Below, piece after piece: positions 38,513-63,423 of a DNA stretch of 64,000 bases (position 1 is its first letter; every line of letters begins with the position of its first letter). Source of the stretch: Tritrichomonas musculus (lineage: Eukaryota > Parabasalia > Tritrichomonadida > Tritrichomonadidae); assembly GCA_039105265.1 (NCBI GenBank), contig JAPFFF010000013.1, forward strand, positions 620,001-684,000, in the 5' to 3' direction. Both the position numbers and the translations under genes were made by a program. Below the pieces are notes generated by a model that was not told where the DNA came from, did no database searches, and worked only from the letters and a program-made list of their open reading frames with translations.

Positions 38513-38908
38513 AATAATTATCAATCAGCATACTTTATGAGTGCATAACTATGAATATATTATTGATTAATATTATTCGCAACAACTTTATTGTATATAG
38601 AGTAATAACCAAAAACTCCTATCCGTTAAGAATGAGATTTTATATATTAAGATAAAAATAAAAAAACTCGTTACTAACAATATTGGCCAAAATTCAATAT
38701 TTTTAACCAAAAATTGGTTATTTGTCTTATTATGATGTTAAAAACACGATTAAGCAAAAAAATTACATTAATATATTTATATATATGATTTTATGCTAGC
38801 AGATGGTTTTAATAGTTGGACACCCTGTTCTCAGAGCTATTCACCTTGAGAAAGTACATGCTATTATTTTATTTGAATATAATACTAGATATTTTAATTA
38901 TATATATA
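38513..38908. other. intergenic between foldback and mariner-type element
   Basis: A/T-rich, ends in a TATATATATA run that contains the TA target of the mariner-type element. Nothing else recognised. Confidence 0.4.
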
Positions 38909-39150
38909 TCGGGTGGTGAAAAAGTTCGTGCGTTTTAAATAACTCTTTCAATTATAGACCATTTTTATAATTCATAGGTAATTAAAATACTAATTTATGT
39001 GCTTCAATTTTTTATTTGAAAATATTGGTTCTTTATCAAGCACACACAGAAATATTTTGAATTTAAAAAACATAGGCCAAATTAATTTTTCCAAAAATGA
39101 AAGTTTGTAAAATAATAAGATAACTTCGCATATAGATAATTTTCTCATAT

Positions 39151-39155
39151 GATTA
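39151..39155 (+). repeat. Polinton target-site duplication, left copy
   Basis: GATTA directly before the left TIR; the same bases follow the right TIR at 58265-58269. If the ambiguous next A is included the duplication is six bases, GATTAA. Five to six bases is what is known for Mavericks/Polintons. Confidence 0.8.
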
Positions 39156-39389
39156 AGTAGATTATAAAAATCATGATTTTTGACCTGCGGTCAAAACTCA
39201 TGATTTTGAACGTCAGAAGTGAAAAACATAAATTCTTAATAAATGATATCATAAGTGCTAACCTCTATTTCTTCACGTATTTCATCAACCGACAAAAACG
39301 ACTTTTGTTAATTTTTCATAAATTTTCACAACTTTTTGCCACTTTTCATCAACCGACAAAAATGACTTTTGCTAATTTTTCATAAATTT
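39156..39389 (+). repeat. Polinton left terminal inverted repeat
   Basis: 234 bp, no mismatch seen against the inverse of 58031-58264. A 19-base inverted motif TTTTGACC-TGC-GGTCAAAA sits at 39178-39196, near the tip. A 44-bp unit starting CATCAACCGACAAAAA occurs twice in tandem fashion, about 70 bp apart (about 39278 and 39348). These are candidate binding sites for integrase or terminal protein. Confidence 0.92.
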
Positions 39390-39427
39390 ATAACGTAAAT
39401 GATTAAATTTATTTTAATATAAAGAAT

Positions 39428-40861
39428 ATGTCAAAATTAAATAGAAATAATTTTAAAGGTTTGAAACTTGATAAACTTAATAAATATATTGAATTAATTA
39501 ATGAAAAACTTAACGTTACTCTTCATAAGTCGCCTTCATGGCAAGGTTCAGTTGCAAATTTAATGAAATTTTTAAATGAAAATAATTATATACAACATGA
39601 AGGTTTGAGAATAAATGATAAATCAATTTCAAATTTTATTTCTAGATTAAATAATTTTCAAAACAAAAACGATAATTTAAATTTTTTACCAATTAATAAA
39701 ATGAATAAATCGAAAATTCCGCAATTAATAAATAATGTTTCTCAATTAAACCAAATGCGTGATCAATCATACGCTAGCTTGGCAGAAAATAACATTAATA
39801 AGAAAGACTTAACTAAAGCATTAAATGATATGGCGTTTTACCGTGAAAGAATGGCTGCAATTCAACCAACGAAAAAGGCAAAACAAAATAAATACGGTAA
39901 TGTTGGTATGGATGACTTAATTAATGTTGTGGCTAAATTAAATCAAGATGTTAAACAAATTCGAGACGCTCAAAGTGTTGTAAGTGCGAATGAATGGATT
40001 AATAGACATGGATATAATGATTTATATGAAGCCACCGGTAAAGATTTAGATGGTGACGGAATACCTGAAGTCGTCGTACAAACAAAAGAAGGTAAAAAGC
40101 CTGTAATAGTTAATGGATTTACAACCGTTCCGTCATTATTCCCAAATCGCAATGCTTATTATAAAACTTACCCAACTGTGGACCAACGTAAAGAAGCTCA
40201 TAAACAAGGTATAAACTTAAGAGGATTTATTAATAATATATATCATCCTGAATTTGATGAAACAGGGCGTACAGTCACTAATTATGCGGGTGAAAGTTGG
40301 CAAGACTTTGAAACAAAATTAAAAGCTGCTGGTATCGATGAAAAGCACTTAATCAAACCAAAGAAACGTTCAACTTATCAGGCATTTGTTGGTAAGTGTA
40401 TCTCTCCAATTTATCAAGGTATCAAATACCTCAACGGTGTAAAATTACCATTCACACTTACACAAATGGCAACAGTTATATGGAATCAATTTGCTTTACT
40501 TCCTGCAATGGTTTATGTTTATGGTGAAAGTGTTATGAATGTTAATGAGGATCAATGGAAGAATTTAAGAGGAAAGAAAGCAGTTAAAGAAGCTATTGAG
40601 TTTATAGTTCACGATTATTTAATAAATCCTGTAAAAATTGCTGATTTTGTCCCTACTGCATGTGAAATGTGTAATAAATCCGGACTACCAGTTAACCCGG
40701 AACATATTCCATTAGTTGCTAAAGCAACAATTGCTATTATTCTTAAAGGAATAAATGCATTACCACCAAATCCAAGTGAATTTAATCAATGGTTTGATGC
40801 TAACGTTCAATCACAAGTTCAAGCATTACAAACATCGGCAATCGTAGAAGAACCTGAATAA
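39428..40861 (+). CDS. Polinton protein with DxDGDG motif, possible virion component
   Basis: A 477-residue protein with an N-terminal helical Asn/Lys-rich part (1-110), a middle segment (180-320) and a helical C-terminal half. The middle segment carries DLDGDGIPEVVVQTKEGKKP and then a VNGF motif, resembling an EF-hand/FG-GAP-like calcium loop followed by a beta turn. The C-terminal half contains FTLTQMATVIWNQFALLPAM. No enzymatic motif is seen. Its place next to the packaging ATPase and capsid gene suggests a structural or assembly role. The family was not recognised with confidence. The start is the first ATG after the TIR, 38 bases inside. Confidence 0.65.
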   Translation: MSKLNRNNFKGLKLDKLNKYIELINEKLNVTLHKSPSWQGSVANLMKFLNENNYIQHEGLRINDKSISNFISRLNNFQNKNDNLNFLPINKMNKSKIPQLINNVSQLNQMRDQSYASLAENNINKKDLTKALNDMAFYRERMAAIQPTKKAKQNKYGNVGMDDLINVVAKLNQDVKQIRDAQSVVSANEWINRHGYNDLYEATGKDLDGDGIPEVVVQTKEGKKPVIVNGFTTVPSLFPNRNAYYKTYPTVDQRKEAHKQGINLRGFINNIYHPEFDETGRTVTNYAGESWQDFETKLKAAGIDEKHLIKPKKRSTYQAFVGKCISPIYQGIKYLNGVKLPFTLTQMATVIWNQFALLPAMVYVYGESVMNVNEDQWKNLRGKKAVKEAIEFIVHDYLINPVKIADFVPTACEMCNKSGLPVNPEHIPLVAKATIAIILKGINALPPNPSEFNQWFDANVQSQVQALQTSAIVEEPE

Positions 40862-40923
40862 TAAATTTTAAGAAATGTGTTAATATCTAATTTCAGTTAA
40901 TGATTCATAAACTTAAAAATATA

Positions 40924-40931
40924 TTTTTATC
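40924..40931 (+). promoter_or_regulatory. TTTTTATC motif upstream of the packaging ATPase
   Basis: One of five exact copies of TTTTTATC found just before Polinton start codons (also 45015, 45448, and on the minus strand 50973-50980 and 56340-56347). Here it is 38 bases before the ATG. Confidence 0.4.
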
Positions 40932-40968
40932 AATAATTAAAATAAACTTTTACATTAATACATAGAAA

Positions 40969-41802
40969 ATGAACACATCATTAGAGAATATGATTAAAAC
41001 ACACGTTATGCATACGTTAAAAACCTATGCTATGGATAAAAATGAAAGCCTAATTTCTGAAATACACCCTGAAGTATCTATTAGACTAAATAGTGTTAAC
41101 GTCATTGTTGGTAAGCAATCATCCGGAAAAACTGTTATAGCATTAAAGGAAATCATCAAATTAGGTGTATTAAACACTCATCACTTATTTATCTACGTTA
41201 CAAAAGACGGTCAGGAATCAGATAAAACATTTTTAGCATTAAAGCCACTTCTTATGATTCCATATATTATAATTAGTGAACAAGAAGCTGTAGAATTCAT
41301 GAAAGATTTAATCTCGGCAAAGAATTTATATAATCTTATCAAACGTGAAAACCTCCATGACAAAATAGATGATCAACAAAAAGAGGATATGTTTAAAATG
41401 CTTGCAGTTTCTGATTTCAACAGAGAAGTATTGCATACAATCGTTTTATTCGATGATATCTCAAATAGTAAACTCTTTTCTTCAGAAGAATCTTATTTTA
41501 GCCAATTAATACGTAGATGTAGACATATAAATTTTTCATTCCTCCTTTTAATTCAAGGTTGGAAAGGATTAAAACCTCATGTTAAAAATGAAATATCAAC
41601 ATTATTTATATTTCCATGTTTCAATAAACAACAATTACGTTATATTTATTCACAATCAGCGTCTAATTTATCATTCGATGAATTTTATCAAATGTATTCA
41701 AAAATATTGAAACGAAAAACTGAAGATTGTGAAAGTCACCCTTATATGATCATTCAAGTTGTCGATGGAGGTAATACATCAATAGAACTTGACGATTCCT
41801 GA
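40969..41802 (+). CDS. A32-like genome-packaging ATPase (FtsK/HerA superfamily)
   Basis: A 277-residue protein. The Walker A motif is GKQSSGKT (48-55). The Walker B strand is TIVLFDDIS, with Asp162-Asp163. A following RRCRHINFSFLLLIQGW contains the expected arginine-rich segment and a sensor-type Gln. Length and motif spacing fit the packaging ATPases of Polintons, virophages and poxvirus A32. It would pump element DNA into capsids. The 3' end overlaps the opposing gene at 41754-42110 by 49 bp, which fits the tight gene packing of the element. Confidence 0.88.
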   Translation: MNTSLENMIKTHVMHTLKTYAMDKNESLISEIHPEVSIRLNSVNVIVGKQSSGKTVIALKEIIKLGVLNTHHLFIYVTKDGQESDKTFLALKPLLMIPYIIISEQEAVEFMKDLISAKNLYNLIKRENLHDKIDDQQKEDMFKMLAVSDFNREVLHTIVLFDDISNSKLFSSEESYFSQLIRRCRHINFSFLLLIQGWKGLKPHVKNEISTLFIFPCFNKQQLRYIYSQSASNLSFDEFYQMYSKILKRKTEDCESHPYMIIQVVDGGNTSIELDDS

Positions 41803-42110
41803 AGAAATGATATAATTTTATTTACTGTATTTCTGATTTCATTTATTTCATTCCTTAATTCTTCAATGGCATCCGTCCTGGGTGAAGCCTTACCTATCTC
41901 TTTTTCGTCTTTTTCAACCCATTTCTTTAACATCAACACACCCTTTATTTTTGTAATTCTATAACCATCGATTTTATACATTTTGTTTAATTTATGAGTC
42001 GTTAACTTATCTACTTCTTCCTTATTCTTTGAATACCATAAATTAAATTCATCGACTGTTTTAAATTCTTTTAAATAGTTTTTAATTGGTTCAATAACTT
42101 TTAAATCCAT
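41754..42110 (-). CDS. small Polinton protein, unknown, with coiled coil
   Basis: 118 residues, beginning MDLKVIEPIKNYLKEFKTVD. The first 70 residues look like a small alpha-helical, Lys-rich fold (EFNLWYSKNKEEVDKLTTHK). The C-terminal 45 residues include a coiled coil (IEELRNEINEIRNTVNKIIS). It overlaps the packaging ATPase tail to tail by 49 bp. DNA binding is possible from the basic charge but not shown. Family not recognised. Confidence 0.6.
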   Translation of the reverse strand: MDLKVIEPIKNYLKEFKTVDEFNLWYSKNKEEVDKLTTHKLNKMYKIDGYRITKIKGVLMLKKWVEKDEKEIGKASPRTDAIEELRNEINEIRNTVNKIISFLQESSSSIDVLPPSTT

Positions 42111-42180
42111 GAATTATGAAATAATTCTGATCAAAGATCTTTAATTAAAAACAAAAATAAAAATTTTTAATTAATAATAA

Positions 42181-42324
42181 ATGAGTTTATCAGAAATTTT
42201 TCTTGGTTGTTTAACAATTATTGAACTCGCTAATTTACTCATTCGCATTGTGAAACTTTCCCCAACATTAAACGATAAACCACCTGAATTAACTGATGAA
42301 ATGAGGAAACGACTTTACTCATGA
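42181..42324 (+). CDS. 47-residue single-pass membrane protein
   Basis: Open frame MSLSEIFLGCLTIIELANLL... with a hydrophobic N-terminal segment of about 20 residues and a charged C-terminal half (PPELTDEMRKRLYS). The ATG is preceded by TTTTTAATTAATAATAA, the A/T-rich form shared by other Polinton starts. It fills the gap between two minus-strand genes exactly, which supports it. Small membrane proteins are common in virophages and Polintons; function unknown. Confidence 0.5.
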   Translation: MSLSEIFLGCLTIIELANLLIRIVKLSPTLNDKPPELTDEMRKRLYS

Positions 42325-42331
42325 TTTATTT

Positions 42332-42652
42332 TTATTCCTTCAATAACGGAATATCAAACCTTCTAATACCTGCTCCGTTCGCTCCAACAATTCTTCTAGC
42401 TCCTGCACCATTCGCACCTAACGCGTTAACGTTTCCTCCTTTATAATTAATTCTGTCATTTAATTTACTCACACCATTTCCGATTGTATTTATTACCTCA
42501 CCAGCACTTCCACCTATTAAATCACCAGCTTGTCCTATCAATGGTGCAAATCTACCAACTGTTTCAACTGCTTTCTTTACTTTTGGAACTATTTTGCCAA
42601 TTATGTTTTTAGCTCCGTTCACAATATTTTTAAACCAACTTCCAAACGCCAT
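42332..42652 (-). CDS. pVI/pX-like small capsid protein candidate A
   Basis: 106 residues starting MAFGSWFKNIVNGAKNIIGK. The N-terminus can form a basic amphipathic helix followed by a Gly/Ala-rich segment. The eight-residue opening MAFGSWFK is shared with the 75-residue protein at 50521, so the two are paralogous at least in the leader. The composition resembles membrane-lytic minor capsid proteins of adenovirus type. A segment DLIGGS fits the adenoviral protease cleavage form (M/I/L)XGG-X, yet no such protease was found in the element. Role inferred. Confidence 0.6.
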   Translation of the reverse strand: MAFGSWFKNIVNGAKNIIGKIVPKVKKAVETVGRFAPLIGQAGDLIGGSAGEVINTIGNGVSKLNDRINYKGGNVNALGANGAGARRIVGANGAGIRRFDIPLLKE

Positions 42653-42763
42653 ATTTTCATTAATGTAAAAAATTTATTTTTCATTTCTTAATTCATTTAT
42701 TTTTTCAAACTATAAATTCTTTTCTTTATTAACTTATTATTTAATTTTTTTTCAATATTTAAA

Positions 42764-44437
42764 ATGACATACTTAAACGCTCAGACGAAAAATTTAGGAA
42801 ATGATGAAGGAGATATTCTCTCATTCTTTCAAAATAAACTTAGACATTTAATTCAACGAAATGGTGGTGATAATTCATTTTCATGGATTATGGAAGAATT
42901 CAAAGATAAAGATGCTCCCCTTCCAGTAGGTACCAAAACACGTATAAAACTCACTCATTCAGGACACACTATTTCACAAATTGAAAAATCATTTTCAACA
43001 ATACTTTTAGATTTTCAATTAAAACTTTCTGATAAAATTGATGTTTCAGCAGATACTAACGGATTAATGAAAATATTTGTTGGTTTCAAAAATGCTGTTG
43101 AATTTTATGAAGATTGTAGATTTTGGGTTAATGGAAAACTTTTAGATACATACAGACAAGATGAACTTCAACGTGAATCATTCGCTTATAACTCAATTAA
43201 ACCACGAGATGCAAAAGCTACATCAAAATTCAGTCATTCAACATGGGAAAATGTTAGTCAATATTCACCATCTATATGTGGATGTTATATTGATTTAAAG
43301 GATATAGCAGATGGTCAACCACACACATTCACAATTGAATTAACGATACCATTTATTGATCAACTCGCACTTCAGGCATGGCAACTTTATCCAAACGCAA
43401 TTTGTGGTGAAATTGAAGAAGAAGTTAAGACATCATTACGTGCTATGGTTTGGTGTCAAGTTAATCCAAACGTTGTTAAAGAAACTTTACAATTCCTTGA
43501 AGATAAACCAATAGATGAAGAAATGCCAGCTGTCGTTCCAATTACTCGTAAATTCACACAAGTAGGTAATCCATCAAACATAGTCATCGAATATAAAGCT
43601 GGTGCAAATTCAGAACCTGCTGATGGATCATTAAAAGTTACTGTTGGTTCAGATGTAAACGGAATTGATATGAAAGTTGGTAAAATAACATTACAAGTTT
43701 TAGGTGGTACCATTCAACTTGGTCGATCAAATCTCGCTGGTTTTGGTCTCAAACCTGGAGTATATCAAGGACTCGTTCATGAATTACAAACACCATTATT
43801 AGTTCCATCACAAGAATTAACGCGTGAAATATTCGAAGGAAGCGCCAAAGTTAATGGTTTAGAAATTTCAAAATCAATTCCTCTCAGAAATGCTACAAAT
43901 ATTACAATGATGTTTCCACGTACTCCAGGAGATATTACATGTTTTGAAAATATCATGTATCAAAATGTTCAATTAGTCGTTAATAAAAGAACTTATCCAG
44001 ACACTGAATTCAGAAGTACATGTAGCGCCCGATTTTATCAACATCAATTAATCGCTAATGAATTAGATGGTTCACTTGAAGCTACTCAAGAATTTGAAGA
44101 TTCATTTACTCAATCTCTTAATGATCCAGTAACTGGTAAACGTTACACAAACTGCAGAAGTGATGGAACAAGTTTTGGTATTAACTTCCAACTTGAACGT
44201 TCAAACGCTGGTTATGTATTTGATGGAATCGATACTGGTTCAAATTCTGTTACTGTCACTTTCCGTGGTCAACCATTATACAGAGGTGATGATGACACAT
44301 ATTTCATTCCTGATTTAGAACATAAAGAACAACATCCACCAGCACCAGAAGCTTGGGTATGTAGCGATACATACTTTACTTGGTCTGTTAATGGTGTTGA
44401 ATATTTCCCTAAAGGTGTTCCATTCGGTTATGAATAA
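42764..44437 (+). CDS. major capsid protein (double jelly-roll) candidate
   Basis: A 557-residue, beta-rich protein in the position of the Polinton major capsid gene. Notable segments are SFSTILLDFQLKL, FVGFKNAVEFYEDCRFWVNG, SHSTWENVSQYSPSICGCYI and IPFIDQLALQAWQLYPNAIC, followed by a second beta-rich half (GGTIQLGRSNLAGFGLKPGV; TFRGQPLYRGDDDTYFIPDL). No signal peptide or membrane segment. The length, neighbourhood and general character agree with Polinton MCPs. The assignment rests on context and pattern memory rather than a search. A structure prediction should show two upright jelly rolls. Confidence 0.72.
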   Translation: MTYLNAQTKNLGNDEGDILSFFQNKLRHLIQRNGGDNSFSWIMEEFKDKDAPLPVGTKTRIKLTHSGHTISQIEKSFSTILLDFQLKLSDKIDVSADTNGLMKIFVGFKNAVEFYEDCRFWVNGKLLDTYRQDELQRESFAYNSIKPRDAKATSKFSHSTWENVSQYSPSICGCYIDLKDIADGQPHTFTIELTIPFIDQLALQAWQLYPNAICGEIEEEVKTSLRAMVWCQVNPNVVKETLQFLEDKPIDEEMPAVVPITRKFTQVGNPSNIVIEYKAGANSEPADGSLKVTVGSDVNGIDMKVGKITLQVLGGTIQLGRSNLAGFGLKPGVYQGLVHELQTPLLVPSQELTREIFEGSAKVNGLEISKSIPLRNATNITMMFPRTPGDITCFENIMYQNVQLVVNKRTYPDTEFRSTCSARFYQHQLIANELDGSLEATQEFEDSFTQSLNDPVTGKRYTNCRSDGTSFGINFQLERSNAGYVFDGIDTGSNSVTVTFRGQPLYRGDDDTYFIPDLEHKEQHPPAPEAWVCSDTYFTWSVNGVEYFPKGVPFGYE

Positions 44438-44534
44438 ATCTAATAATTAATTTATTTATTTTTCATTTCAAACGTTTTCAAAAAATTTTAAATCTATTTA
44501 AAATTAATTTTTCAAATTTTTTATTTCTATACAA

Positions 44535-45005
44535 ATGAGTGAATACATCAACATTAATAAGTTATTTGAAAAACTTCCTGAATCAGAACTTAAAGCTGTT
44601 CAAGTATATTTTGATGACTTCATAACTGATAAATTCTATAAATACAAAATGAACGTAAAGATATTATTTCTTTCATTAGTTTATAAAAATAATACCCAAA
44701 ATGTCATGACATATAAAGAATTTAGAGAGTTATTCCCTGAGTGTGAATGGTTAACTATTCCTAAACGTGCCTTCGGTGCCTTAACGTCAGGATCACAAAT
44801 ACGATTAATGAAAGCTTATATTAAAGCTGATAGAATAAATTATAAAACGACATTTTATCATGAATGTGTAGTAAAAGAATGTGAAAACCAAAATAAACTT
44901 AATGAATTCATTAAAAATAGGTCTGAGGCTAAAGTTCAAATTGTAAATGAATTATCCGAAAAATGTAACATTAATGATGAAGAAATAGACCCAGACTTGT
45001 TTTAA
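44535..45005 (+). CDS. Polinton protein of 156 residues, unknown
   Basis: Begins MSEYININKLFEKLPESELK. Predominantly alpha-helical, with a conserved-looking core (TYKEFRELFPECEWLTIPKR; AFGALTSGSQIRLMKAYIKA) and an acidic tail ending NDEEIDPDLF. It lies in the same orientation between the capsid and fibre-like genes, 97 bp after the capsid stop. The ATG is preceded by TTTTTTATTTCTATACAA. No family recognised; a virion-associated or late role is inferred from position. Confidence 0.6.
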   Translation: MSEYININKLFEKLPESELKAVQVYFDDFITDKFYKYKMNVKILFLSLVYKNNTQNVMTYKEFRELFPECEWLTIPKRAFGALTSGSQIRLMKAYIKADRINYKTTFYHECVVKECENQNKLNEFIKNRSEAKVQIVNELSEKCNINDEEIDPDLF

Positions 45006-45014
45006 ATTTATAAA

Positions 45015-45022
45015 TTTTTATC
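45015..45022 (+). promoter_or_regulatory. TTTTTATC motif
   Basis: Lies 10-17 bases before the ATG at 45032, in the context TTTTTATCCTAATATAA. The same arrangement occurs before the polymerase (TTTTTTATCTAATATAA, minus strand). Confidence 0.45.
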
Positions 45023-45031
45023 CTAATATAA

Positions 45032-45382
45032 ATGAAGATTAATGATACAATCATTGATTTATGTCTTAATGTGTCAATAAATAATGTCATTAGCGAAAAT
45101 GCTATTTACGATCATATTTTCGACATCGTTTTCGATTTATATGATGAAATAACTAATGATAAAGAAATAAATCAAGAATGTTGCCAAAAATTAATTGCCA
45201 TATGCGAGGAAACATTTGAAGTTAAAGTTAATGAATATGTTGATTTAATAAATGAAGGATTAACAGAAGATATCAAGAAAAATGATTTCAAGCTTGATTT
45301 ATTCATGTCCCAAAAAGCATATTCATTAATACCAATAATTAAAAACTATTTAATCGAAAATTATGAAATTTTCTCGAAATAG
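45032..45382 (+). CDS. Polinton protein of 116 residues, unknown
   Basis: Begins MKINDTIIDLCLNVSINNVI. Acidic and probably all-helical, with two closely spaced Cys (QECCQKLIAICEE). Starts 27 bp after the preceding gene and shows a TTTTTATC motif just upstream, so it is likely expressed with the other element genes. No membrane segment, signal or domain recognised. Confidence 0.55.
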   Translation: MKINDTIIDLCLNVSINNVISENAIYDHIFDIVFDLYDEITNDKEINQECCQKLIAICEETFEVKVNEYVDLINEGLTEDIKKNDFKLDLFMSQKAYSLIPIIKNYLIENYEIFSK

Positions 45383-45447
45383 ACCCAGACGAATTCTAAA
45401 AGAATTCTGCAGCCAAAAGCTACATGTTTTAAATTTATATATTTTTA

Positions 45448-45455
45448 TTTTTATC
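45448..45455 (+). promoter_or_regulatory. TTTTTATC motif
   Basis: Lies 10-17 bases before the ATG at 45465. Confidence 0.4.
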
Positions 45456-45464
45456 AAATCATAA

Positions 45465-45806
45465 ATGACCAAATCAACCAAAACTTACTTTATCACTCGT
45501 GACTATATTAATAAATTTCCTCCTGAGTTCGTTAATTCTCGTAATGATAAATATATTTCATTTCAATATTGTCGTGCTACATGTAATGATTACCTTGATG
45601 GTGAAACTGAAGTGCACGCATCATTTGTTCCTCGCGATGAATATTGTGATTCTCTCGTTTGGTATGCAAATTTAACACCACCTGATGACAACAGAAAATA
45701 TAAATATACATTAAACCATGATCGTTTTAAAGTATGGTTCACTGATGCAAAAGGTAATGAAATAATACCTGATAATTTCACATTATTCCTTAAATTTGAA
45801 TACTAG
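45465..45806 (+). CDS. beta-rich small Polinton protein, possible minor capsid or tail part
   Basis: 113 residues, MTKSTKTYFITRDYINKFPP at the start and FTLFLKFEY at the end. Aromatic-rich with alternating hydrophobic residues that suggest a beta-sandwich (YISFQYCRATCNDYLDGETE; HASFVPRDEYCDSLVWYANL). It directly precedes the large fibre-like gene. It is shorter than the usual Polinton penton protein, so that identity is not claimed. A small structural protein is the likeliest reading. Confidence 0.55.
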   Translation: MTKSTKTYFITRDYINKFPPEFVNSRNDKYISFQYCRATCNDYLDGETEVHASFVPRDEYCDSLVWYANLTPPDDNRKYKYTLNHDRFKVWFTDAKGNEIIPDNFTLFLKFEY

Positions 45807-45893
45807 CGTAACTTTTACGAAGTATTGATTTTTATAAAATCTCTAAACTTCGTATATTAAAAATATTTATTTTTATAATTAATAAATTAATAA

Positions 45894-50959: not shown

Positions 50960-50972
50960 ATTTTTATTATGT

Positions 50973-51063: not shown

Positions 51064-52671
51064 ATGACGGAAACATTATTTAATAACACAGATGGGATAA
51101 TTTCATATGTGACAAGTAAGATAGAAAAGTATGAACCGAATAAATTTGAGGAACAAGTGAAATATTATATAAATCATTATTGTGAAAAATATTTGAAAGT
51201 GAAAATTCCAGCTCAACATATAAATAATTTCTATATAATTCATTACTTAACCATTCGTGATATAGTTAAAGATAATGAACGTAAACGACAAATGGAAATT
51301 GAACGTGAACGAATGCAAGATTATGAAGCTGCTGTGAGAATAGCAAGGAGGGATTTAATGAATAAAGTTTATAAAAACAAAAATAAATTATCATTTGTAC
51401 AAGTTAAACGTTTAAAATATTTTCAGCCATTATTGAATGAAGATATAAGAAACATTTATGATGAATATGAAAGAGAATATGAAAATGAGCACAAGAGTGA
51501 ACCAAAAGTAAGAAAAAAAACGTTTGGTGATAAATTAGATAAATTTGTTGTTGAACATATGAATGATAATTTATTAACATATGATGATTTTGTAAGAGTT
51601 ACTAGTGGATGGAATAGAGGTAGACGTTCAATTAATAATTGGTATGAAGATTATAAAAAGAAATATTTTAAACAACCGGGAACAACGATAAATTATGATG
51701 AAAATGAATTAACGGGGTTGATTGGTTATAAAAGTAAAGATAAAGTTAATGCCTTAAAATTAATTAATCCAGAAATGAAAGTAAGTGATGGAAAAATAAA
51801 GTCATCATTTGATTTGAAAAGAAATATTAAAAATTATCAACTTCATAAATGCACAGCAAGGAATACATGGATTATTGATTTAATGTTCGTTGGAAAACTG
51901 GCTTATTTAGTTGCAATAAATGCAAACACTAAATATTTATATGTGGAGTTATTAAATGATATGATTGATGATAAAACATTTACAAAACAGAATTTAAAAA
52001 GTAGTGTTTCATATTTGAGAGCATTAAATAGAATGATTGAAAAAGGAATGAATGTAAAACATTTAACGGGTGATGGTGAAAAAAGTTTTAATTCAAAATT
52101 AGCGTGGGAGTCATTTTATAATTCACGAGGAATTGATTTTAAACCAGTTGAAAGACAAGTAATGGGAAATTATCCCGATTTCATGAATAAAGAACAGAAA
52201 GCAGTTAAAAGTGATCCATTACATGGAAGTTTGGGCGTTATTGATAGAGTAATTAGGAGTATTAGAGATATGGCATATGTGATGAAAGTTGGCGTAATTA
52301 CACCAAATGTTATGGATGAAATAGTTAATCAATATAATAATGCACCACATAAAGGTTTAAGTAAATGGGCAGGCTTTGAAGTAACACCGAAAATGGTAAA
52401 TGATGATTCTGAATTAGAGGAGTATATAGTAAGGCGAATATGTCAGGAGAATTGGAAAGTAATGAATAGTCCCGGATTTAGAATAAATGAAGGTGTAAGT
52501 GTTAAAGTTTATAACGAAAAAGACACAATGGGTAAAAGACGGTCAATAATTCAACCCGGTGAATTTAAAGTTATTGGTTTCAAGAATGGATTATATGAAG
52601 TTAAAGGTAATGTTAACGGTAAAAATGGAAAAATACAAATGATACCAAGATATAAATTAGATTACGTTTAA
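51064..52671 (+). CDS. Polinton retroviral-type integrase
   Basis: 535 residues. A helical N-terminal 200 residues is followed by an RNase H-fold core: TWIIDLMFVG with Asp272, HLTGDGEKSF with Asp337, and HGSLGVIDRVIRSIRDM. In the last the helix usually carrying the catalytic Glu shows Asp394. A C-terminal SH3-like beta domain follows (SVKVYNEKDTMGKRRS; GEFKVIGFKNGLYEVKG). It would insert the element and create the 5-6-bp duplication seen at its ends. The 3' end overlaps the polymerase gene by 4 bp. Asp in the third position may be a family trait in trichomonad elements. Confidence 0.85.
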   Translation: MTETLFNNTDGIISYVTSKIEKYEPNKFEEQVKYYINHYCEKYLKVKIPAQHINNFYIIHYLTIRDIVKDNERKRQMEIERERMQDYEAAVRIARRDLMNKVYKNKNKLSFVQVKRLKYFQPLLNEDIRNIYDEYEREYENEHKSEPKVRKKTFGDKLDKFVVEHMNDNLLTYDDFVRVTSGWNRGRRSINNWYEDYKKKYFKQPGTTINYDENELTGLIGYKSKDKVNALKLINPEMKVSDGKIKSSFDLKRNIKNYQLHKCTARNTWIIDLMFVGKLAYLVAINANTKYLYVELLNDMIDDKTFTKQNLKSSVSYLRALNRMIEKGMNVKHLTGDGEKSFNSKLAWESFYNSRGIDFKPVERQVMGNYPDFMNKEQKAVKSDPLHGSLGVIDRVIRSIRDMAYVMKVGVITPNVMDEIVNQYNNAPHKGLSKWAGFEVTPKMVNDDSELEEYIVRRICQENWKVMNSPGFRINEGVSVKVYNEKDTMGKRRSIIQPGEFKVIGFKNGLYEVKGNVNGKNGKIQMIPRYKLDYV

Positions 52672-55600: not shown

Positions 55601-56327
55601 TTACTTTAAAAGATATTTTATATTTTTGAATGATAGGAAGTGTTGCGATTTCTTCGGCAAAGAATTTTTTAAGTAATGAGAATAATAAATGTTTTCCTTT
55701 ATTATTTAATAATTCAAAATCTATTTCCCAATTAGTGGGAGTAGTATTTAATTTTTCCATGATATCATTAACTATTCGTTCTTGATCTTTATTTAATTCT
55801 TTCCATTCTCTAAAGGATTTAATATTATATAAATTTAAATCTTTTGGTGACTCATCTGGGAAAAATTGAGCATCATTTAATGCATCAGTATTTAAAGGTT
55901 TATTATTCCAAAATTCACGAATATCTTTTGAATGTTTCATTAATTCATCAAGAAATGAAGAATCTTTTTTATGTAAATCACGGTTGAATTTTTCATGTAA
56001 ACGTTGACGGTTGAAATCATCAAGTGAATCTTGAATTTTGTATTTATTTAAATTTTTGAATAAATAATCATCAGAATCTATGTAACGTTTAAGTGGTTTC
56101 GGTGATGGAATATTTAAACCTTTCACGAACCAATACATGGAATTATAATTATTTTCTCCATCATATCCTTTATTTAAAATATCTGAAACTAACATTTCAA
56201 TTAAATTTTCTCGTAAATCATTTTCATTATCAAATTCATTTTTCCAATCATTAATTGTTAAATTTTCATTATATAATAAATTTGATAACTCAATTAATTT
56301 ATTTGTTGGCGTATTGTCTAATGACAT
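52668..56327 (-). CDS. protein-primed DNA polymerase B with OTU-like domain
   Basis: 1219 residues. The N-terminal 345 are helical and may include the terminal-protein region. Residues 350-465 look like an OTU-type cysteine protease module (ELNDCCFIYALKQTG with Cys355/356; FNIFENHYFIEEETPF with His447). The exonuclease motifs are YADFEAD (Asp563, Glu565), YFHNLAYD (Asp618) and YCQQD (Asp745). The polymerase motifs are DFDAVSLYPS (829-838), KLIMNSCYG (969-977) and YQDTDS (1064-1069). All catalytic residues are present. This is the Polinton replicative enzyme, replicating from the terminal repeats. The gene's promoter side faces an iteron array. Confidence 0.93.
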   Translation of the reverse strand: MSLDNTPTNKLIELSNLLYNENLTINDWKNEFDNENDLRENLIEMLVSDILNKGYDGENNYNSMYWFVKGLNIPSPKPLKRYIDSDDYLFKNLNKYKIQDSLDDFNRQRLHEKFNRDLHKKDSSFLDELMKHSKDIREFWNNKPLNTDALNDAQFFPDESPKDLNLYNIKSFREWKELNKDQERIVNDIMEKLNTTPTNWEIDFELLNNKGKHLLFSLLKKFFAEEIATLPIIQKYKISFKVNGQWYNKPLTPEVFNRLMQNFTEEHFIFDIDNKPPEYFYEQGSDELPEWSLFSALSFSLYEKYDGKNDIGGSFFQYLTTDKVPPKVVKYLKRLQIFDTLINDENEQREELNDCCFIYALKQTGFYKNDLLNLMRLRVNNRYLSQSSINHLCEEFHIHLKLTYINEDAKCKKQTVRSCKNKSYKSFMGVKDAEPNRTHTFNIFENHYFIEEETPFSTYYIKHLNELIDEPDKFNQEYNVDHWRKSRSFISSSNLVRELFRQKYFKPITFGQYSILNTTYYNEINADISNIQLEYNADECTQLIAPISAKYKNKVDPTYWYADFEADVSGKIHKPFMCVLQSQNGKVNKEFRGEDCNIKLLEFLPDESVIYFHNLAYDIRMLAQYGINKSIIKGTKTMKADITYKKKTLHFKDSLPILSCKLSQLPQMFDIPNIQKEIFPYKYYTLERLATNYGVINEAGLNEDKIWSSDDYKLFNSNIDKIPNCRIDENHFDMWAYASFYCQQDVNILRLGFNQFRNGFIKDFNIDPFKYISISSLANEVFNQRVYYPNKNLYKIGGHVRKFCSHAVYGGRCMTAYNKKWHTTKSLSDFDAVSLYPSAMARLYTVEGRPKVIKPHQLNLKFLSYQGAYIVEIKITKVNKHYPFPLIVRKVNGLNLNDDNLLPGETVNMVVDNITLEDLIEFQKIEFEFIRGYYWSGKRDYTIQKEIRKIFNKRLEYKKQHNPLQQLYKLIMNSCYGKTIERPVEKDYKYFDNVNKLTNYWCKNYYKIIEAVNISDEITAVKTLRPIDKHFNFSLLGIQVLSMSKRIMNEVMCLAYDLGCHIYYQDTDSMHIEVDDLPRLVKAFNEKYDRELIGSDLGQFHSDFPTINGHDEMPKAIESFFLMKKMYIDKLKDSTGDIDYMIRGKGLTQNSIKYAYKSFNNDPMKLYESIYNGNSQTFDLTQGQPCFSMNKNMTVSTVKSFSRSIKTTYDEGKRDDYFN

Positions 56328-56339
56328 ATTTTTATATTA

Positions 56340-56347
56340 GATAAAAA
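56340..56347 (-). promoter_or_regulatory. TTTTTATC motif of the polymerase gene
   Basis: GATAAAAA on the plus strand, 13-20 bases upstream of the polymerase ATG, in the context TTTTTTATCTAATATAAAAAT on the coding strand. Confidence 0.45.
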
Positions 56348-56433
56348 ATTAAAAAAATAAAAATTAATTAGATTTATTTTTTTGAGACATGTGATATAAA
56401 AATAAATTATTAATTAATTTTATAAAATTATTT

Positions 56434-56805
56434 GGAATCTGCGGACGGTTATTTAAAAATATCCGGAGAACGTTTATTTATAAAAAATATTTGGAATCTG
56501 CGGACGGTTATTTAAAAATATCCGGAGAACGTTTATTTATAAAAAATATTTGGAATCTGCGGACGGTTATTTAAAAATTTCTTGACTTTAATTTTCTGAG
56601 CTTATTGAATTATAAAATTTTATAAAAATCTGCGGACGGTTAGGAATAATTCAATGATCCGCAGCGGTTAGCAGAGTATTTTTCATGAAAATATACGTTA
56701 TTTTTAAATAAATGTGGAATCTGCGGACGGTTATTAATTTATTCGTTATTTGGAATCTGCGGACGGTTATTAATTTATTCGTTATTTGGAATCTGCGGAC
56801 GGTTA
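56434..56805 (+). repeat. GC-rich iteron array (GGAATCTGCGGACGGTTA)
   Basis: Exact 18-bp copies start at 56434, 56493, 56552, 56716, 56752 and 56788. A seventh copy at about 56626 lacks the first bases. Spacings are 59, 59, then 36, 36 in the last trio. In the first trio a second motif ATCCGGAGAACGTTTATTTA alternates with it. A related GATCCGCAGCGGTTAGCAGA is at about 56656. The array stands out against an A/T-rich background and lies 107 bp upstream of the polymerase ATG. Candidate protein-binding or regulatory array. Confidence 0.85.
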
Positions 56806-57361
56806 ATAAAAAATAAAAAGTAAATTTAATACGAGTTGTTTAAAAAAATAAAAAAAAAAGGGTGTATTTTTTTAGCACAGTGCTGTAGCACAGAGAACTT
56901 TTTGTATGCATATATGGTCTAAATAAACTTTTTGAGAAATTAAAATTAATTATTTTTAAACCAAATAGCATGACCTATTCATGCTTTTTTTATTCTTTTT
57001 AAATATTTTAAAAGTATTTGTTTTCTTATTTAATACTGATTTTAACCATTAAATCCTAAATTATATCAATGTAGGAAGCCCATCAAGCCATTTGATTATC
57101 TAAATCAACCATTTTTAAGATTAAATATTAATCAAATAATAATCTCATTTTTGAAAATTTTCGATTATTTCGCGTTTAACATATTCTCTAAATGGCATAA
57201 ATTAAGAAATCAATAAAAAATACAAGGAACTTTTAATCTTTTCTATGTAAAATAAAGCTCGAAAAAATGGACGATTATTTTCTTCTGAAAAAGTTGCGTG
57301 TGCTATAAAGAATTCCTCAAAAAAAAAACAAGGAAAAAAACATGCAAGCAAAAAAAAAGAA
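56806..57361. other. non-coding stretch between iterons and the last Polinton gene
   Basis: A/T-rich. It contains an inverted motif AGCAC-A-GTGCT at about 56875-56885, followed by a second TAGCACAG. No open frame of note. Confidence 0.4.
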
Positions 57362-57877
57362 TTAAGCTATTTTGAGACTTTTGGCACGAAAAATTAAATC
57401 TTGAATATCAGAATCTTCTTCTTCATCATATTCCAAATATGTCGGATCACGTGTTTCACTACTTTCATCTTCTTCGTTGGAAATGATCGGTTTCTTTTGA
57501 GCAAATGACATAAAACATCCTACATGTTGTTTCGTTCGATCATAATTAATAAATTCTGTATGATGAATTATGATTTTTCGTCTTTGTCTAAGATATTCTT
57601 CCGCCAATTTGAACCAAATGAAAATGTAATTAGCATCTTGAAACTGAGGATGTGTGTCTAAATACATTATAAGCATACGACGACGTTGGTCAACAGTACG
57701 ATCTCTTTTATCGAATTGAACTATGTTTAAAAAAAGATCAATTTGAGATTTATTTAAATTGTATATCAAACTTCTTTGATAATGTTGATACAAGGCTCTA
57801 GGTGGCGTGAAAAGTTTAAGATCTTCTTGAGTCATTCCTAATCTATTAATAATTGTTTGAATGTAACTTGCTTGCAT
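57362..57877 (-). CDS. 171-residue protein with acidic tail, possible cargo gene
   Basis: MQASYIQTIINRLGMTQEDL at the start, a helical core rich in Arg/Gln/Tyr (PPRALYQHYQRSLIYNLNKS; QRRRMLIMYLDTHPQFQDAN; FKLAEEYLRQRRKIIIHHTE) and an acidic, Asp/Glu/Ser-rich tail from about residue 132. It is the only Polinton gene with a host-type initiator (TCACTT, 12 bases upstream) and it lies between the iterons and the right TIR. No family recognised. It may be an element gene expressed early from the host machinery or an acquired cargo gene. Confidence 0.6.
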   Translation of the reverse strand: MQASYIQTIINRLGMTQEDLKLFTPPRALYQHYQRSLIYNLNKSQIDLFLNIVQFDKRDRTVDQRRRMLIMYLDTHPQFQDANYIFIWFKLAEEYLRQRRKIIIHHTEFINYDRTKQHVGCFMSFAQKKPIISNEEDESSETRDPTYLEYDEEEDSDIQDLIFRAKSLKIA

Positions 57878-57888
57878 AATATTTTTTG

Positions 57889-57894
57889 AAGTGA
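57889..57894 (-). promoter_or_regulatory. host-type Inr of the 57877 gene
   Basis: TCACTT on the minus strand, matching TCA-Py-(T/A), 12-17 bases before the ATG. Confidence 0.5.
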
Positions 57895-58030
57895 AAATTT
57901 TTTATATCACAATTCTTAAATTTTGCAACGTATACTTATATAAATCATTTAAAAAATTAACGGATAGGTTAAGTGAATATTTAAATTTTGAAGTATTCAA
58001 ATTAATATTAAATTTTCACATTTATGTATA

Positions 58031-58264
58031 AAATTTATGAAAAATTAGCAAAAGTCATTTTTGTCGGTTGATGAAAAGTGGCAAAAAGTTGTGAAAATTT
58101 ATGAAAAATTAACAAAAGTCGTTTTTGTCGGTTGATGAAATACGTGAAGAAATAGAGGTTAGCACTTATGATATCATTTATTAAGAATTTATGTTTTTCA
58201 CTTCTGACGTTCAAAATCATGAGTTTTGACCGCAGGTCAAAAATCATGATTTTTATAATCTACT
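58031..58264 (-). repeat. Polinton right terminal inverted repeat
   Basis: Inverse copy of 39156-39389 with no mismatch seen. Ends ...ATAATCTACT, directly followed by the GATTA target copy, which is at the same time the start of the MULE's own target duplication. Confidence 0.92.
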
Positions 58265-58273
58265 GATTAATAT
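58265..58273 (+). repeat. MULE 9-bp target duplication, left copy (shared with Polinton GATTA)
   Basis: GATTAATAT; identical to 62343-62351. Its first five bases are also the right copy of the Polinton target duplication. Confidence 0.85.
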
Positions 58274-58646
58274 GGATTAGGAAAAAAATTCCAACTTGGA
58301 ATTTCCAAGTTTTTTTTATTTCACATGTCAAGAAAACTTGGAAATTCCAAGTTTTTTTTTCCCTGAGCTTTTCTTCAACAATAGCAAGAACAAAATGATA
58401 AAAAACGCGTTAATACTTTAATATAATAAGTTATCAATATCATTTGGCAATTTTTTTCGTGCATTTCATCCAAATCTTAAAATGCTGATACTGATATCAT
58501 TACGCCATGCTTCTCAAAATACAAAAACAAATGCAAATTTACCGCTATCAACACTTTAATAACAATATACGATTCATTTACCATGCAAATTTCGAAATTT
58601 TCATTTTGACTCTCATAATTAATATTTTCAGTAATTATACTAGCAT
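58274..58646 (+). repeat. MULE left TIR
   Basis: About 373 bp, nearly identical to the inverse of the right TIR at 61971-62342. The tip holds two copies of a palindromic ACTTGGAAxTTCCAAGT. Confidence 0.85.
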
Positions 58647-58843
58647 AATCAATATACATAATTACATTAATATGGAAAATTATTTTATGCTAGTATAATT
58701 AATATGAAGTATGAACTAATTTTTTATCCTACCGAATGTTTTTTTAAAAAATTTTCAAAAAGTTCTAACAATTCATTCAAAAAGTTGTGATAAACCATTC
58801 AAATATTATACAAATTCGTTTAGTTTTTCCATTTCTAATCTTG

Positions 58844-60799
58844 ATGGAAACATCGAAAATAGAACTCGTCAATTTTTTTGAAAATAGGGACGAAATGATT
58901 CAATATTGCATAAATTTAGCACGTACAAAATCAATAAAGTTTAATATTCTAAATTCTGGAAATTATTATAAAATTCAATGCAAAGATTCCAAAAAATGCA
59001 AAAAAGGTTATTATCTAGTTCTCAAAGGTACCAATCTCAATCATAAAATTAATTGTTCTCATTCAATCCAAAATATTCGTGATTCCCTTGATCCTCACGC
59101 TCTAGCCGAACGTATATCTGATTCATTTAAAGAATCAATGCCATCAATTAATCAAGTAAAAAATATACTTAAAATAATTTCAGGTAAAGACTTTACAAAA
59201 AATGAATCAAAATACATACGCCATCTTGCTAAAGGAATATTTTTCAATCATACAAAGGGATCATTAGGCCAATTGATAGACCTAGCCGAAAAATTTAAGA
59301 ATGAACACAACTGGGAATTGAATTACGACTTTTTTGAAGGAACTTTAACAGCTATTATACTGTTTCCACCATGGGCAAGAAAAGTTCTTAAGTCATACCC
59401 AAATCCTCTTATAGTTGACGCAACTTTTTCAAAAGAAGATATTCGATTCACAACATGCGCCGTTATTGATGGTGAATTACATACACAAATAGTTGGTATT
59501 GTTCTAAGAGGGACAGAGGATTCAAAAGGATATCGATATATCTTTGATATGATTGAGAATGAACTGCCCGATGTCCATTTCACAGTAATTTCTGATATGG
59601 CTCCATGTATAGAAAAAGCTTGTCGTGATAGTTTTGGGAAAAAATATAATTTAATATATTGCTTATTTCATTTAAAAGAAAACTTTTTAAAAAAGTTTCA
59701 ATTCAAGCCAAGTGTAAATTTATGGAAATGCTTAAAACATTTAATGCAAGGAAAAATATCTGATGACACTTTTCAAGCACTTTGGATCAAAGAAGAATCG
59801 CAAGTTGATTCAGAACTCAAAGGTCTTTATTATTTAAGCAATATTGCTCATCACTTTTTATCAAATCCAAAGATTCACAAACGAAACATTGTATCGTCAC
59901 AACGTTTAGAAATGTTTAATAATATTATTAAATTGAAATCAAACAACGCATATTATATGCTTCAAGAATGTTTCACCATTTCAACTGAATGGTTTGAGGC
60001 ATCTGCTTCTAGAATTCACAAGGAAAATCAATTATTAACTGATTCAGCAAATCAATTAATTGACAAAATGATACTTAAAGATGCTCGCAACGAATTTTAC
60101 GATGATGAGTATCATTTAGTCGGCCAAAAAGGTAAATGCGTTTGTTATATCGACACAGACTTAGGAATTCCTTGTCCAAAACAGATACGCTTCTTAAGAG
60201 AAAACAATATTGATTTATATAAAGCTGTTTCAAAAGATTGGCTTTGTTCCACATTTCATGAGGCGTTTGGTACAATTACTTGTAATGTTAGCCTTAATAA
60301 TCATTCTTATGAAAAAGTTGTTCAAACTGATCAATTAAAAGTGCAAGATGCAGATTTAATTGCTTCAAAAATCAGATATCTATATCAGAATTCTCCAGAA
60401 TATAGGGAAAAAATAAATGATCTTATTCATCAAGCCCAAATTGACATACAATTACCACTTTTTTCATTATTGAACAAGCCCAAAAAAAAGCAAAAAAAAC
60501 GATATATTAGTTCTATAGAAGAAAATAACTTGGACAAAGATAAATCTCTTATATTCAAAATAATTCAACGTCATGTCGAAGGGAGGAAAGTCACAATTTC
60601 TGCTCTTGTATCACTTGCAAATCAATTATGCGATACAAATCCAGCCATACCAAGATTAAAATACACAGTTAAAACTAAAAAGGCCATAATTGATTGGTAT
60701 TTTAAAAATTGGACAATGATCAGCAAAGCTTTTGCAGATATTCCTAACCAGGCTCCAAATGGCGTTATTGTTTCTGATGATGAAAATGAAATATTTTAA
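58844..60799 (+). CDS. MULE transposase
   Basis: I start at ATG 58844 (METSKIELVNFFENRDEMIQ), since the frame upstream opens only with GTG; 651 residues. An N-terminal zinc-ribbon or FAR1/FLYWCH-like region (KIQCKDSKKCKKGYYLVLKG; CSHS) is followed by the MULE DDE core. That core has LIVDATFS (Asp192), TVISDMAP (Asp251), the typical C-x2-H (CLFH, 273-276) and SSQRLEMFNN (Glu356). Near residues 495-525 a SWIM-like CVCYIDTDLGIPCPKQI follows, then a basic stretch with KPKKKQKKR that may be a nuclear signal. All catalytic residues are present, so the element may be active. Confidence 0.88.
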   Translation: METSKIELVNFFENRDEMIQYCINLARTKSIKFNILNSGNYYKIQCKDSKKCKKGYYLVLKGTNLNHKINCSHSIQNIRDSLDPHALAERISDSFKESMPSINQVKNILKIISGKDFTKNESKYIRHLAKGIFFNHTKGSLGQLIDLAEKFKNEHNWELNYDFFEGTLTAIILFPPWARKVLKSYPNPLIVDATFSKEDIRFTTCAVIDGELHTQIVGIVLRGTEDSKGYRYIFDMIENELPDVHFTVISDMAPCIEKACRDSFGKKYNLIYCLFHLKENFLKKFQFKPSVNLWKCLKHLMQGKISDDTFQALWIKEESQVDSELKGLYYLSNIAHHFLSNPKIHKRNIVSSQRLEMFNNIIKLKSNNAYYMLQECFTISTEWFEASASRIHKENQLLTDSANQLIDKMILKDARNEFYDDEYHLVGQKGKCVCYIDTDLGIPCPKQIRFLRENNIDLYKAVSKDWLCSTFHEAFGTITCNVSLNNHSYEKVVQTDQLKVQDADLIASKIRYLYQNSPEYREKINDLIHQAQIDIQLPLFSLLNKPKKKQKKRYISSIEENNLDKDKSLIFKIIQRHVEGRKVTISALVSLANQLCDTNPAIPRLKYTVKTKKAIIDWYFKNWTMISKAFADIPNQAPNGVIVSDDENEIF

Positions 60800-61970
60800 A
60801 TTTAATAAATATTTTTTTTTTTTTAACATGATCTATTTTAATAAATTTTTTTTTTACTTTTTTCTTTTTAACATGATCAATTATTATATCTGAATGGTTT
60901 ATAAGAAGCTTTAATGAATCAAAAAACATTCGGTAGGAATAAAAAAAGCACCGAACTTTTTTTTTTTGAATGGTTTATTAAAACTTTTTGAATTAATTGT
61001 GATACATTCTTAGATTATCTAAATATTAAGCTAATATTATACCTTTTTCCTGAGTTTAAAAGCATATTATAAAAATAAATAAATAAAAAAAATATCGTGA
61101 GAGAAAGTTATAAACTGGAATCGAAAAGTCGATATCGCCAAATAAGCATTGAATTTTTTATTTTAAAACAGAATTATTATTTTTGAGCAAAAAAAATAAG
61201 TGATTAGCGCCAAGCCAGCAAACCACTAAACTTTATCAATGAAAATACTCCACAAGTTCAATCATTTCAATTTTCTGCTATAACCCAACTTCAATATTCA
61301 ATTTTGAAATAACATTAATTTCTCGAGTGATGCTCCAAAATAATCCAAAATTAGTCGATAAAGCAATAGAAAGCCTACTAATTATGATGATTCCACGCAT
61401 TTCTAGTCTTTTTATGTAGTTTTTACTCTCTTTATTTTCAATCAATTAACATAATAGGAATTAAATGAAAAAAAATTAAGCTTTTCTACTATTTTTAATA
61501 AAGAAAACTCAATTAAACTATACAATAAGCATTCGAAAGGCTTTCAATTGATACAATTACATAATTAATTTCAATCATTCTACCACAACTACTTCATTTT
61601 TCTTCAATACAATGCAAAAATCGATGCATGTCTCATTAAAAGAAGTTATACTCACCAAAATAAGTGATGAAGAAAGAAGAAGTTGGTGTTTATTATTACT
61701 GGCTACATCTTAAATCGAAACTTTTTGAATAAAAATTATATAATTTTCAAACTTTTTGAGATCATCAAAATCTCGATATCATTATTTTCACTTTTTGATA
61801 AGCATTTTTCAGAGAGTTCTTAATTTTTGTTTGATTGAAAAAAATAATTGCCTCAAAATCGATATCCTGTTTTTGATTCCAGTTTATATGGATTTTTTTT
61901 TTTTTTAATTTAGGAAAGATATCTTTTTTTTTATTTCCTATTTGAATTTTTCGGATAGATACATTTATTT
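60800..61970. other. MULE internal non-coding part
   Basis: A/T-rich, with inverted copies of sequences found upstream of the transposase: ACATTCGGTAGGA at about 60927 and GAATGGTTTAT at about 60893 and 60968. No open frame of note. Confidence 0.5.
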
Positions 61971-62342
61971 AATGCTAGTATAATTATTGAATATTAATTA
62001 TGAGAGTCAAAATGAAAATTTCGAAATTTGCATGGTAAATGAATCGTATATTGTTATTAAAGTGTTGATAGCGGTAAATTTGCATTTGTTTTTGTATTTT
62101 GAGAAGCATGGCGTAATGATATCAGTATCAGCATTTTAAGATTTGGATGAAATGCACGAAAAAAATTGCCAAATGATATTGATAACTTATTATATTAAAG
62201 TATTAACGCGTTTTTTATCATTTTGTTCTTGCTATTGTTGAAGAAAAGCTCAGGGAAAAAAAAACTTGGAATTTCCAAGTTTTCTTGACATGTGAAATAA
62301 AAAAAACTTGGAAATTCCAAGTTGGAATTTTTTTCCTAATCC
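61971..62342 (-). repeat. MULE right TIR
   Basis: Inverse of 58274-58646, ending CCTAATCC before the second GATTAATAT (62343-62351). Confidence 0.85.
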
Positions 62343-62351
62343 GATTAATAT

Positions 62352-63295
62352 ACTATGGCATATGCTACTTATAACTATATATCAAATGTTTCGATTATAT
62401 AATTTTATATATATTAAATTTTATTTTTTAAAAAACGAAACAATTGTGAAGTGAAAAAAATTGGCAAAAAAATCTAAATTAAATTGGTGAAATAAATTAG
62501 ATTTAAAATAATTATTTTTATGTTATTATATATATATATTATTTATTTATTATTTTGGAGGATTTATTATTTGTGCATTGATTTATGGTTGCTATTAAAT
62601 AGCATATATAATAAAAACTATATGAACCATCATTTTAAACGCAGGTAAAAATGGAATCAATATTTAATATAATATTGCACAACTATATTTAAATAATTAT
62701 CAAAATAATTTCATATGAATATCATTCTACTCAAAAAAATTGTATTAGTTTTATTTTATCAAAAATTAATTTTCTCACAATTTTTTATATTGAATTTAAA
62801 TATATTTTTTTGTTTCTTCTTTTGGTTATTTATGCAAATGATAAAATTATAATTGCTTTATAAACATAAATAAATATTATGATATAAAAACAAATCGAAT
62901 ATTCCTTTTAAATATCTAGTTATATTAATTATTTTTCTTGAACATTCCTTATTTACCTATATCATTAAAAGATTATTTTATTTACCATCACCAAGGTAGC
63001 TCGAATATAACTTATATCAACATAAATTTAGCAAATAATATTATAGATATTTATGATAAAATAATGAAAAAATATTTTGAATTCATTGAATTATTACATC
63101 AAAAATTGATAATAAAATCAGTTTTGAAAGATATTTTGTAAAAAAATTAAGGGCATTTATTTTGAAACAATAATATGGTAAGGTTCTAATTGATACTGAG
63201 TTTTTAAAATTTACTAACATATTATATACTTCATATAGTTTATTTATATATAATAAATTAATAATTTCATTTGATATTCAGTGAGTTTTACAAAT
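62352..63295. other. residual interior of the mariner-type element
   Basis: About 0.94 kb between the MULE duplication and the right mariner TIR. Only short frames (for example 62938-63141, 67 residues) are open, and I could not recognise a mariner DD34D motif. Consistent with a decayed transposase gene. Confidence 0.45.
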
Positions 63296-63423
63296 CGCAC
63301 GAACTTTTTCACCACCCGATAATTAAAAAAATAATAAAGATATTATTGAATTTTTTTAGAAATAAAAGGTGACCTGCTAAAATTTTTATCATGAATCTTT
63401 GCACTCTTTACAATGAGATAAAT

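Follow-up and report, generated by a model that had tools for sequence, protein, structure and literature searches.

How did a Polinton/Maverick come to lie, without a single spacer base, against a Mutator-like element (MULE) inside a third transposon? The question is raised by a locus in our window, the whole stretch of 64,000 nucleotides that was analysed (C13:620001-684000, in a 193.4-Mb genome of 746 contigs), where both elements interrupt a mariner-type element with terminal inverted repeats (TIRs). We read the five junctions, measured the TIRs, searched the genome with each element, and compared the copies found. The nest is real and exact and three levels deep, and the abutment is very probably the outcome of independent insertions stacked by chance.

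Boundaries and depth of the nest

All element boundaries hold to the base by junction reading, TIR measurement, and a scripted rebuild (Table 1). An earlier note on this DNA had named the element types, their ends, their duplications, and their abutment, all of which were upheld by the junctions and the measured TIRs, and its interpretation of the nest is supported. It had also spoken of a three-level nest; the depth stands, yet the three elements it described occupy two levels only. The third level is supplied by a fourth element of 772 bp, absent from that note, such that the 772-bp element lies within the MULE, and the MULE, next to the Polinton, within the mariner-type element.

The outer ends of the mariner-type element share 24 identical bases, TCGGGTGGTGAAAAAGTTCGTGCG. 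The empty copy that had been predicted was found twice (L002 on C12 and L003 on C69), each with the expected intact site TCTCATATGATTAATATACT letter for letter in the context ...TTTTCTCATATGATTAATATACTATGGC... and with both TCGGGTGG ends around it. Because these empty copies exist, the two outer TCGGGTGG ends in the window belong to one element, which removes the concern that they might derive from unrelated elements. The right part of the window element is 97.3-97.7% identical to L002 and L003 (98.8% for the left part), and removal of both inserts does restore, as claimed, a mariner-sized element of 1,219 bp.

Long TIRs and a 5-6-bp target duplication are hallmarks of Polintons/Mavericks. Here, the Polinton starts with AGTAGATT and ends with AATCTACT, its TIRs match at 234/234 bp, and its duplication fits two readings, one of 5 bp (AGTAG...CTACT) and one of 6 bp (GTAG...CTACT), an ambiguity previously left as GATTA(A). 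The 6-bp form is ruled out by two other places: a 6.2-kb relative with common ends on C4, where the duplication AATTT fits 5 bp and not 6, and two inward-facing ends 42 kb apart on C53, taken to be one element, where the same is true of AAAAT. The duplication is thus GATTA. A more distant end pair on C12 (TTTCT) fits 5 bp and also a shifted 6-bp reading, and the end pair on C21 showed no matching duplication.

The MULE carries 353-bp TIRs and a 9-bp duplication, GATTAATAT, and a second copy (C21:1562233-1565565) is flanked on either side by TATATTTTG. Our set of MULE ends numbers 77, with GGATTAGG at 43, GGATGCGG at 33, and a single end matching the pattern with other mismatches; flanks were read for 30, all of the GGATTAGG type and from 28 copies. 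The duplications of the family at these 30 ends are varied and AT-rich, and GATTAATAT fits them. The transposase domain PF10551 was matched by the 651-aa (amino acid) protein at E 3e-5 with 24.8 bits, short of the curated cut-off of 27.6, and is present in three of five homologues.

Comparison with sibling MULEs delimits the 772-bp element. The insertion site is covered by 26 of the 30 ends compared, and all 26 align across it without the 772-bp stretch; of the remaining four, two are the ends of the window copy itself, one is the distal end of the C21 copy, and one is a truncated copy. In one sibling (L011), read to the letter, AAAGTTATATATGGA takes the place of what in the window is AAAGTTATA, the 772-bp stretch, and then TATATGGA. 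The TIRs of the element are imperfect, agreeing at 16 of their first 20 bases, and its target duplication is TA. A genome search with it returned 41 matches, the best 24 of which (window copy included) have, after rounding, 100% identity across 746 or more of the 776 query bases; of the 23 others among these best matches, 20 span positions 1-774 or beyond. The 772-bp element looks like the youngest piece of the nest.

Insertion order and the abutment

The MULE duplication begins at the edge of the Polinton with no spacer, and GATTA makes up the first five of the nine GATTAATAT bases. The earlier note held that both insertion orders are equivalent, and our rebuild from parts bears this out, as Polinton-then-MULE and MULE-then-Polinton each equal the window letter for letter; the sequence therefore does not fix the order. 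TIR divergence was ruled out as a guide, both TIR pairs being identical. Moreover, 33 of the 35 two-ended MULE copies carry one GGATTAGG and one GGATGCGG end, with GGATTAGG at both ends in the window copy and the C21 copy, and the MULE ends may therefore have been homogenised, which makes their TIR pair a poor clock. The pieces of MULE copies that align with the window copy share 98.6-100% identity with it; in the mariner family, the other copies reach 97-98.8% at best (some 90% or less), and dating the Polinton by a sibling yielded no close one (40 of 518 candidates scored). We lean towards the MULE having inserted last, as a preference and not a result.

A misplacement of the MULE or the Polinton by the assembler has in its favour that both are repeats; exact scans of IMG/VR with the two Polinton junctions, which gave no matches in a collection that need not hold this genome, supplied no independent assembly. 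Against this, the duplications are those of real insertions and match the empty copies exactly, and a misjoin is not expected to restore GATTA and GATTAATAT, which renders an artefact extremely unlikely. The absence of a spacer would also suit a single composite unit of Polinton and MULE mobilised jointly through its outer ends; however, each element has its own complete TIR pair and its own duplication (5 versus 9 bp), no second exact copy of the junction was found, and such a joint origin is barely credible.

Whether the junction recurs was the check that the earlier note had set, with a single occurrence to be taken as chance. We searched for the end of this Polinton, 0-14 bases, and then a GGATTAGG MULE end, as an exact match; the pattern thus covers one of two MULE end types and leaves out GGATGCGG ends, other Polinton families, and mismatched ends. 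It has one match in 193 Mb, the window locus, which within these limits points to chance by that measure. Polinton proteins, of several different genes, occur in the next 1.5 kb at 9 of the 30 MULE ends read (window copy included), in line with a Polinton-rich genome; Polintons make up about a third of the T. vaginalis genome according to PMC10120064, a figure for that species and not for this genome. Among the 30 ends, a Polinton end (CTACT) stands directly before the 9-bp duplication in the window copy only.

Several points weigh against chance. By a naive estimate, 0.002-0.014 boundaries would be expected to fall within 4 bp of a Polinton end over 42 MULE copies, and such closeness has a chance of about 0.7% given that both inserts lie within a 1,219-bp element. 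Furthermore, the flanks covered 30 of 77 MULE ends, all GGATTAGG, with the 33 GGATGCGG ends and other Polinton families outside the pattern. For a thousand MULE-like insertions, a number assumed, the expectation rises to 0.05-0.33 (both estimates assume 518 to 3,500 Polintons). The comparison is post hoc, as many other pairs of families or types of junction might have caught the eye; the abutment is improbable if these two families are named beforehand, and nothing remarkable if any pair, anywhere, would count.

The same low expectation for this MULE family, together with the zero-base spacing, is what would favour targeting. On this view, the first insertion could change the local chromatin or the shape of the DNA, for instance, and so attract the second enzyme: the MULE transposase to a newly made Polinton edge or its duplication, or the Polinton integrase to the edge of a MULE. 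Against such a mutual attraction to fresh edges, the genome-wide pattern, which covered one of the two types of MULE end, matched exactly once; in the 70 bases displayed at each of the 29 further MULE ends that were read, no Polinton end precedes the duplication, and no MULE end stands within the 40 bases displayed at any other end of this Polinton's type. We consider edge-targeted integration very unlikely as the source of the abutment. Of eight papers listed by a literature search on nested Polinton and Mutator-like insertions, none concerns such a junction by its title or the opening of its abstract.

Chance stacking would have proceeded as follows, where the enzymes and the absence of targeting are what we infer, the former from knowledge of the families. 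A short non-autonomous Tc1/mariner-type element would have landed at a TA, and a Polinton would have integrated into it via its own integrase with a 5-bp stagger, duplicating GATTA. A recently amplifying MULE would then have inserted at the Polinton's edge via the MULE transposase with a 9-bp stagger, duplicating GATTAATAT; in the alternative order, the MULE would have come first and the Polinton would have entered its left duplication. A young TA-targeting 772-bp element would have entered the MULE by TA-directed transposition. The abutment itself would be a chance event in an AT-rich, transposon-rich genome.

Table 1. Elements, duplications, and Polinton and MULE genes of the nest (positions in the window).
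Feature	Position	Strand	Size, basis, or remark
TA, left target duplication of mariner-type element	38907..38908		junction reading
Mariner-type element	38909-63319		1,219 bp without inserts; TA-flanked, TIRs
Mariner-type element, left part, TIR TCGGGTGGTGAAAAAGTTCGTGCG	38909..39150	+	98.8% identity to L002, L003
GATTA, Polinton left target duplication	39151..39155		right copy 58265-58269
Polinton/Maverick	39156..58264		19,109 bp; TIRs, gene content
Polinton left TIR	39156..39389	+	234 bp; 234/234 identical to right TIR
Open reading frame (ORF), 477 aa	39428..40861	+	no match above cut-off
Packaging ATPase, 277 aa	40969..41802	+	Pox_A32, E 1.4e-7, above cut-off
Double-jelly-roll major capsid protein, 557 aa	42764..44437	+	AlphaFold2 model and structure matches
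DUF4108 protein, 156 aa	44535..45005	+	E 2.1e-9
ORF, 1,312 aa	45894..49832	+	no match above cut-off; weak Pox_A32
Integrase, 535 aa	51064..52671	+	homologue name and motif
DNA polymerase B, 1,219 aa	52668..56327	-	PF03175, E 5e-41
Polinton right TIR	58031..58264	-	234/234 identical to left TIR
GATTAATAT, MULE left duplication	58265..58273		first 5 bases = Polinton right duplication
MULE	58274..62342		4,069 bp; 353-bp TIRs
MULE TIRs	58274-58626 and 61990-62342		353/353 identical
MULE transposase, 651 aa	58844..60799	+	PF10551 and homologues
772-bp TA-flanked TIR element, AACTGGAATC...GATTCCAGTT, inside MULE	61113..61884		sibling comparison
GATTAATAT, MULE right duplication	62343..62351		mariner-type element resumes here
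Mariner-type element, right part	62352..63319	+	comparison with family copies
TA, right target duplication of mariner-type element	63320..63321		junction reading

Genes and relatives of the nested elements

The Polinton is genuine, with a type B DNA polymerase (PolB), a packaging ATPase, an integrase, and a capsid protein, and its large frames are open. The polymerase, a putative protein-primed type B enzyme, matches DNA_pol_B_2, and the A32-like ATPase scores 31.7 bits with PF04665 (cut-off 22.8). As no Pfam rve match was found for the integrase up to E 5, its assignment as retroviral-type rests on a homologue from Tritrichomonas musculus (57% identical; UniRef name 'Integrase catalytic domain-c...') and on a motif of three aspartates (D272, D337, and D394) that all 49 aligned relatives share. 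The third catalytic residue of rve integrases is Glu, where this protein and its 49 relatives have Asp (IDR); a D-D-D triad with a predicted catalytic role is possible. The capsid protein gave no Pfam match above cut-off (AbiGi, 17.3 bits versus 22.4) and no match in a search of viral_contigs. Its model (predicted local distance difference test, pLDDT, 88.3) matched PBCV-1 (best E 6.2e-13), Sputnik (6.3e-11), and mavirus (4.7e-10) in the PDB with template modelling (TM) scores of 0.4-0.5; its matches in BFVD include a virophage capsid protein and one that bears the name penton capsid protein, from an adintovirus. No adenovirus-type cysteine protease was matched among the Polinton ORFs scanned by profile, a scan that remote homology could escape. 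Two small proteins (42335-42673, minus strand; 50509-50748, plus strand) have similar N-termini, MAFGSWFKNIVNG and MAFGSWFKKLAGK, with a 75% DNA match, which suggests a duplicated small gene, perhaps for a virion peptide.

Like the Polintons/Mavericks of T. vaginalis, the element combines PolB, integrase, A32-type ATPase, and a double-jelly-roll capsid protein with long TIRs, a short duplication, and a length of about 19 kb. It differs from them in being low-copy among the candidates scored, with no PolB sibling above 83% identity among 40 of 518. The capsid gene is ruled out as a discovery, its T. vaginalis counterpart having been published (PMC10120064); DUF4106 is given there for that species, although the capsid protein here has no Pfam match above cut-off.

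Tvmar1, a Tc1/mariner element, is about 1.2-1.3 kb long and flanked by a TA duplication, as is our outer element. The presence of TIRs is likewise shared with elements such as Tvmar1 (PMC4021607). Unlike Tvmar1, the outer element has no transposase frame and behaves as a non-autonomous relative akin to a miniature inverted-repeat transposable element (MITE). Specifically, in the empty copies L002, L003, and L005, of the five longest frames listed per copy none that lies within the element exceeds 70 aa, and two 1.63-kb relatives (C6, C12) gave no DDE/D transposase match among the candidates scored (150 of 189 for PF01359; 150 of 720 for PF13358). The earlier label 'mariner-type' stands on the TA duplication and TIRs and not on a transposase; we therefore call the element mariner-type, non-autonomous, and not mariner proper.

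The mariner family has 53 ends and sixteen copies with two facing ends (facing ends of this family, the MULE, and the C65-type insertion below were paired by hand from coordinates). Seven copies measure 1,215-1,220 bp, six 810-1,628 bp, and three are enlarged by insertions: the window copy, one on C65, and one on C8. The C65 copy (C65:435811-462526; L069, L070) is split by a TA-flanked 25.5-kb insertion with 333 exactly matching terminal bases (TAGGTGGGCTCGAACTTG). Among 40 of 168 candidates scored, its 338-bp ends elsewhere form 10 facing pairs at 1.55-1.60 kb and three at 3.2, 5.8, and 10.5 kb; since they pair mostly at ~1.59 kb, the insertion is probably a second nest, and deep nesting seems to recur without the junction described above. 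Two family copies (C8:4477177, L064; C65:436022, L069) are broken directly after the same AAAATAATA by different sequences, about 35 bp from the Polinton/MULE site, and AAAATAATA is possibly a favoured TA.

The MULE shares with the TvMULEs of T. vaginalis a MULE transposase and TIRs in a parabasalid. By comparison with PMC2725143, it differs in its 353-bp perfect TIRs (imperfect in TvMULEs, 30 and 38 bp in two table rows) and 9-bp duplications (10-14 bp in TvMULEs), and MULE copies nested in another repeat have already been reported there for T. vaginalis.

Other features of the window and meaning of the nest

Elsewhere in the window, positions 25275-27421 form very long, nearly perfect inverted repeats with 28743-29678 and 30753-31963 around a 1.3-kb centre (pieces of 1,211, 698, and 261 nt at 98-100%; right arm split by ~1.1 kb), probably another recent element or a palindrome that has itself received an insertion. 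A 51-nt inverted repeat (98%) at 22078-24014, starting with TACCCGTATTTTACACAATC and with arms ~1.9 kb apart, is probably a TA-type element. Host-type genes at 2911-20120 and 35761-37512 encode ankyrin-repeat proteins, a protein kinase, a calpain-type protease, and an IBD transcription-initiator protein (PF10416), a domain linked to trichomonads. Together with the named integrase homologue, this gene suggests that the host is a trichomonad, probably a Tritrichomonas.

A recurrent Polinton-MULE junction would have mattered, and none was found within the limits of the search. The nest is ordinary in kind and leaves knowledge of how these kinds of element work unchanged. Its value lies in a clean, base-resolved stack of insertions, in which the target duplications of four elements are readable at one place, and in the new families that it supplies for a trichomonad-like genome: a low-copy Polinton, a MULE with 353-bp TIRs, and two TA elements.

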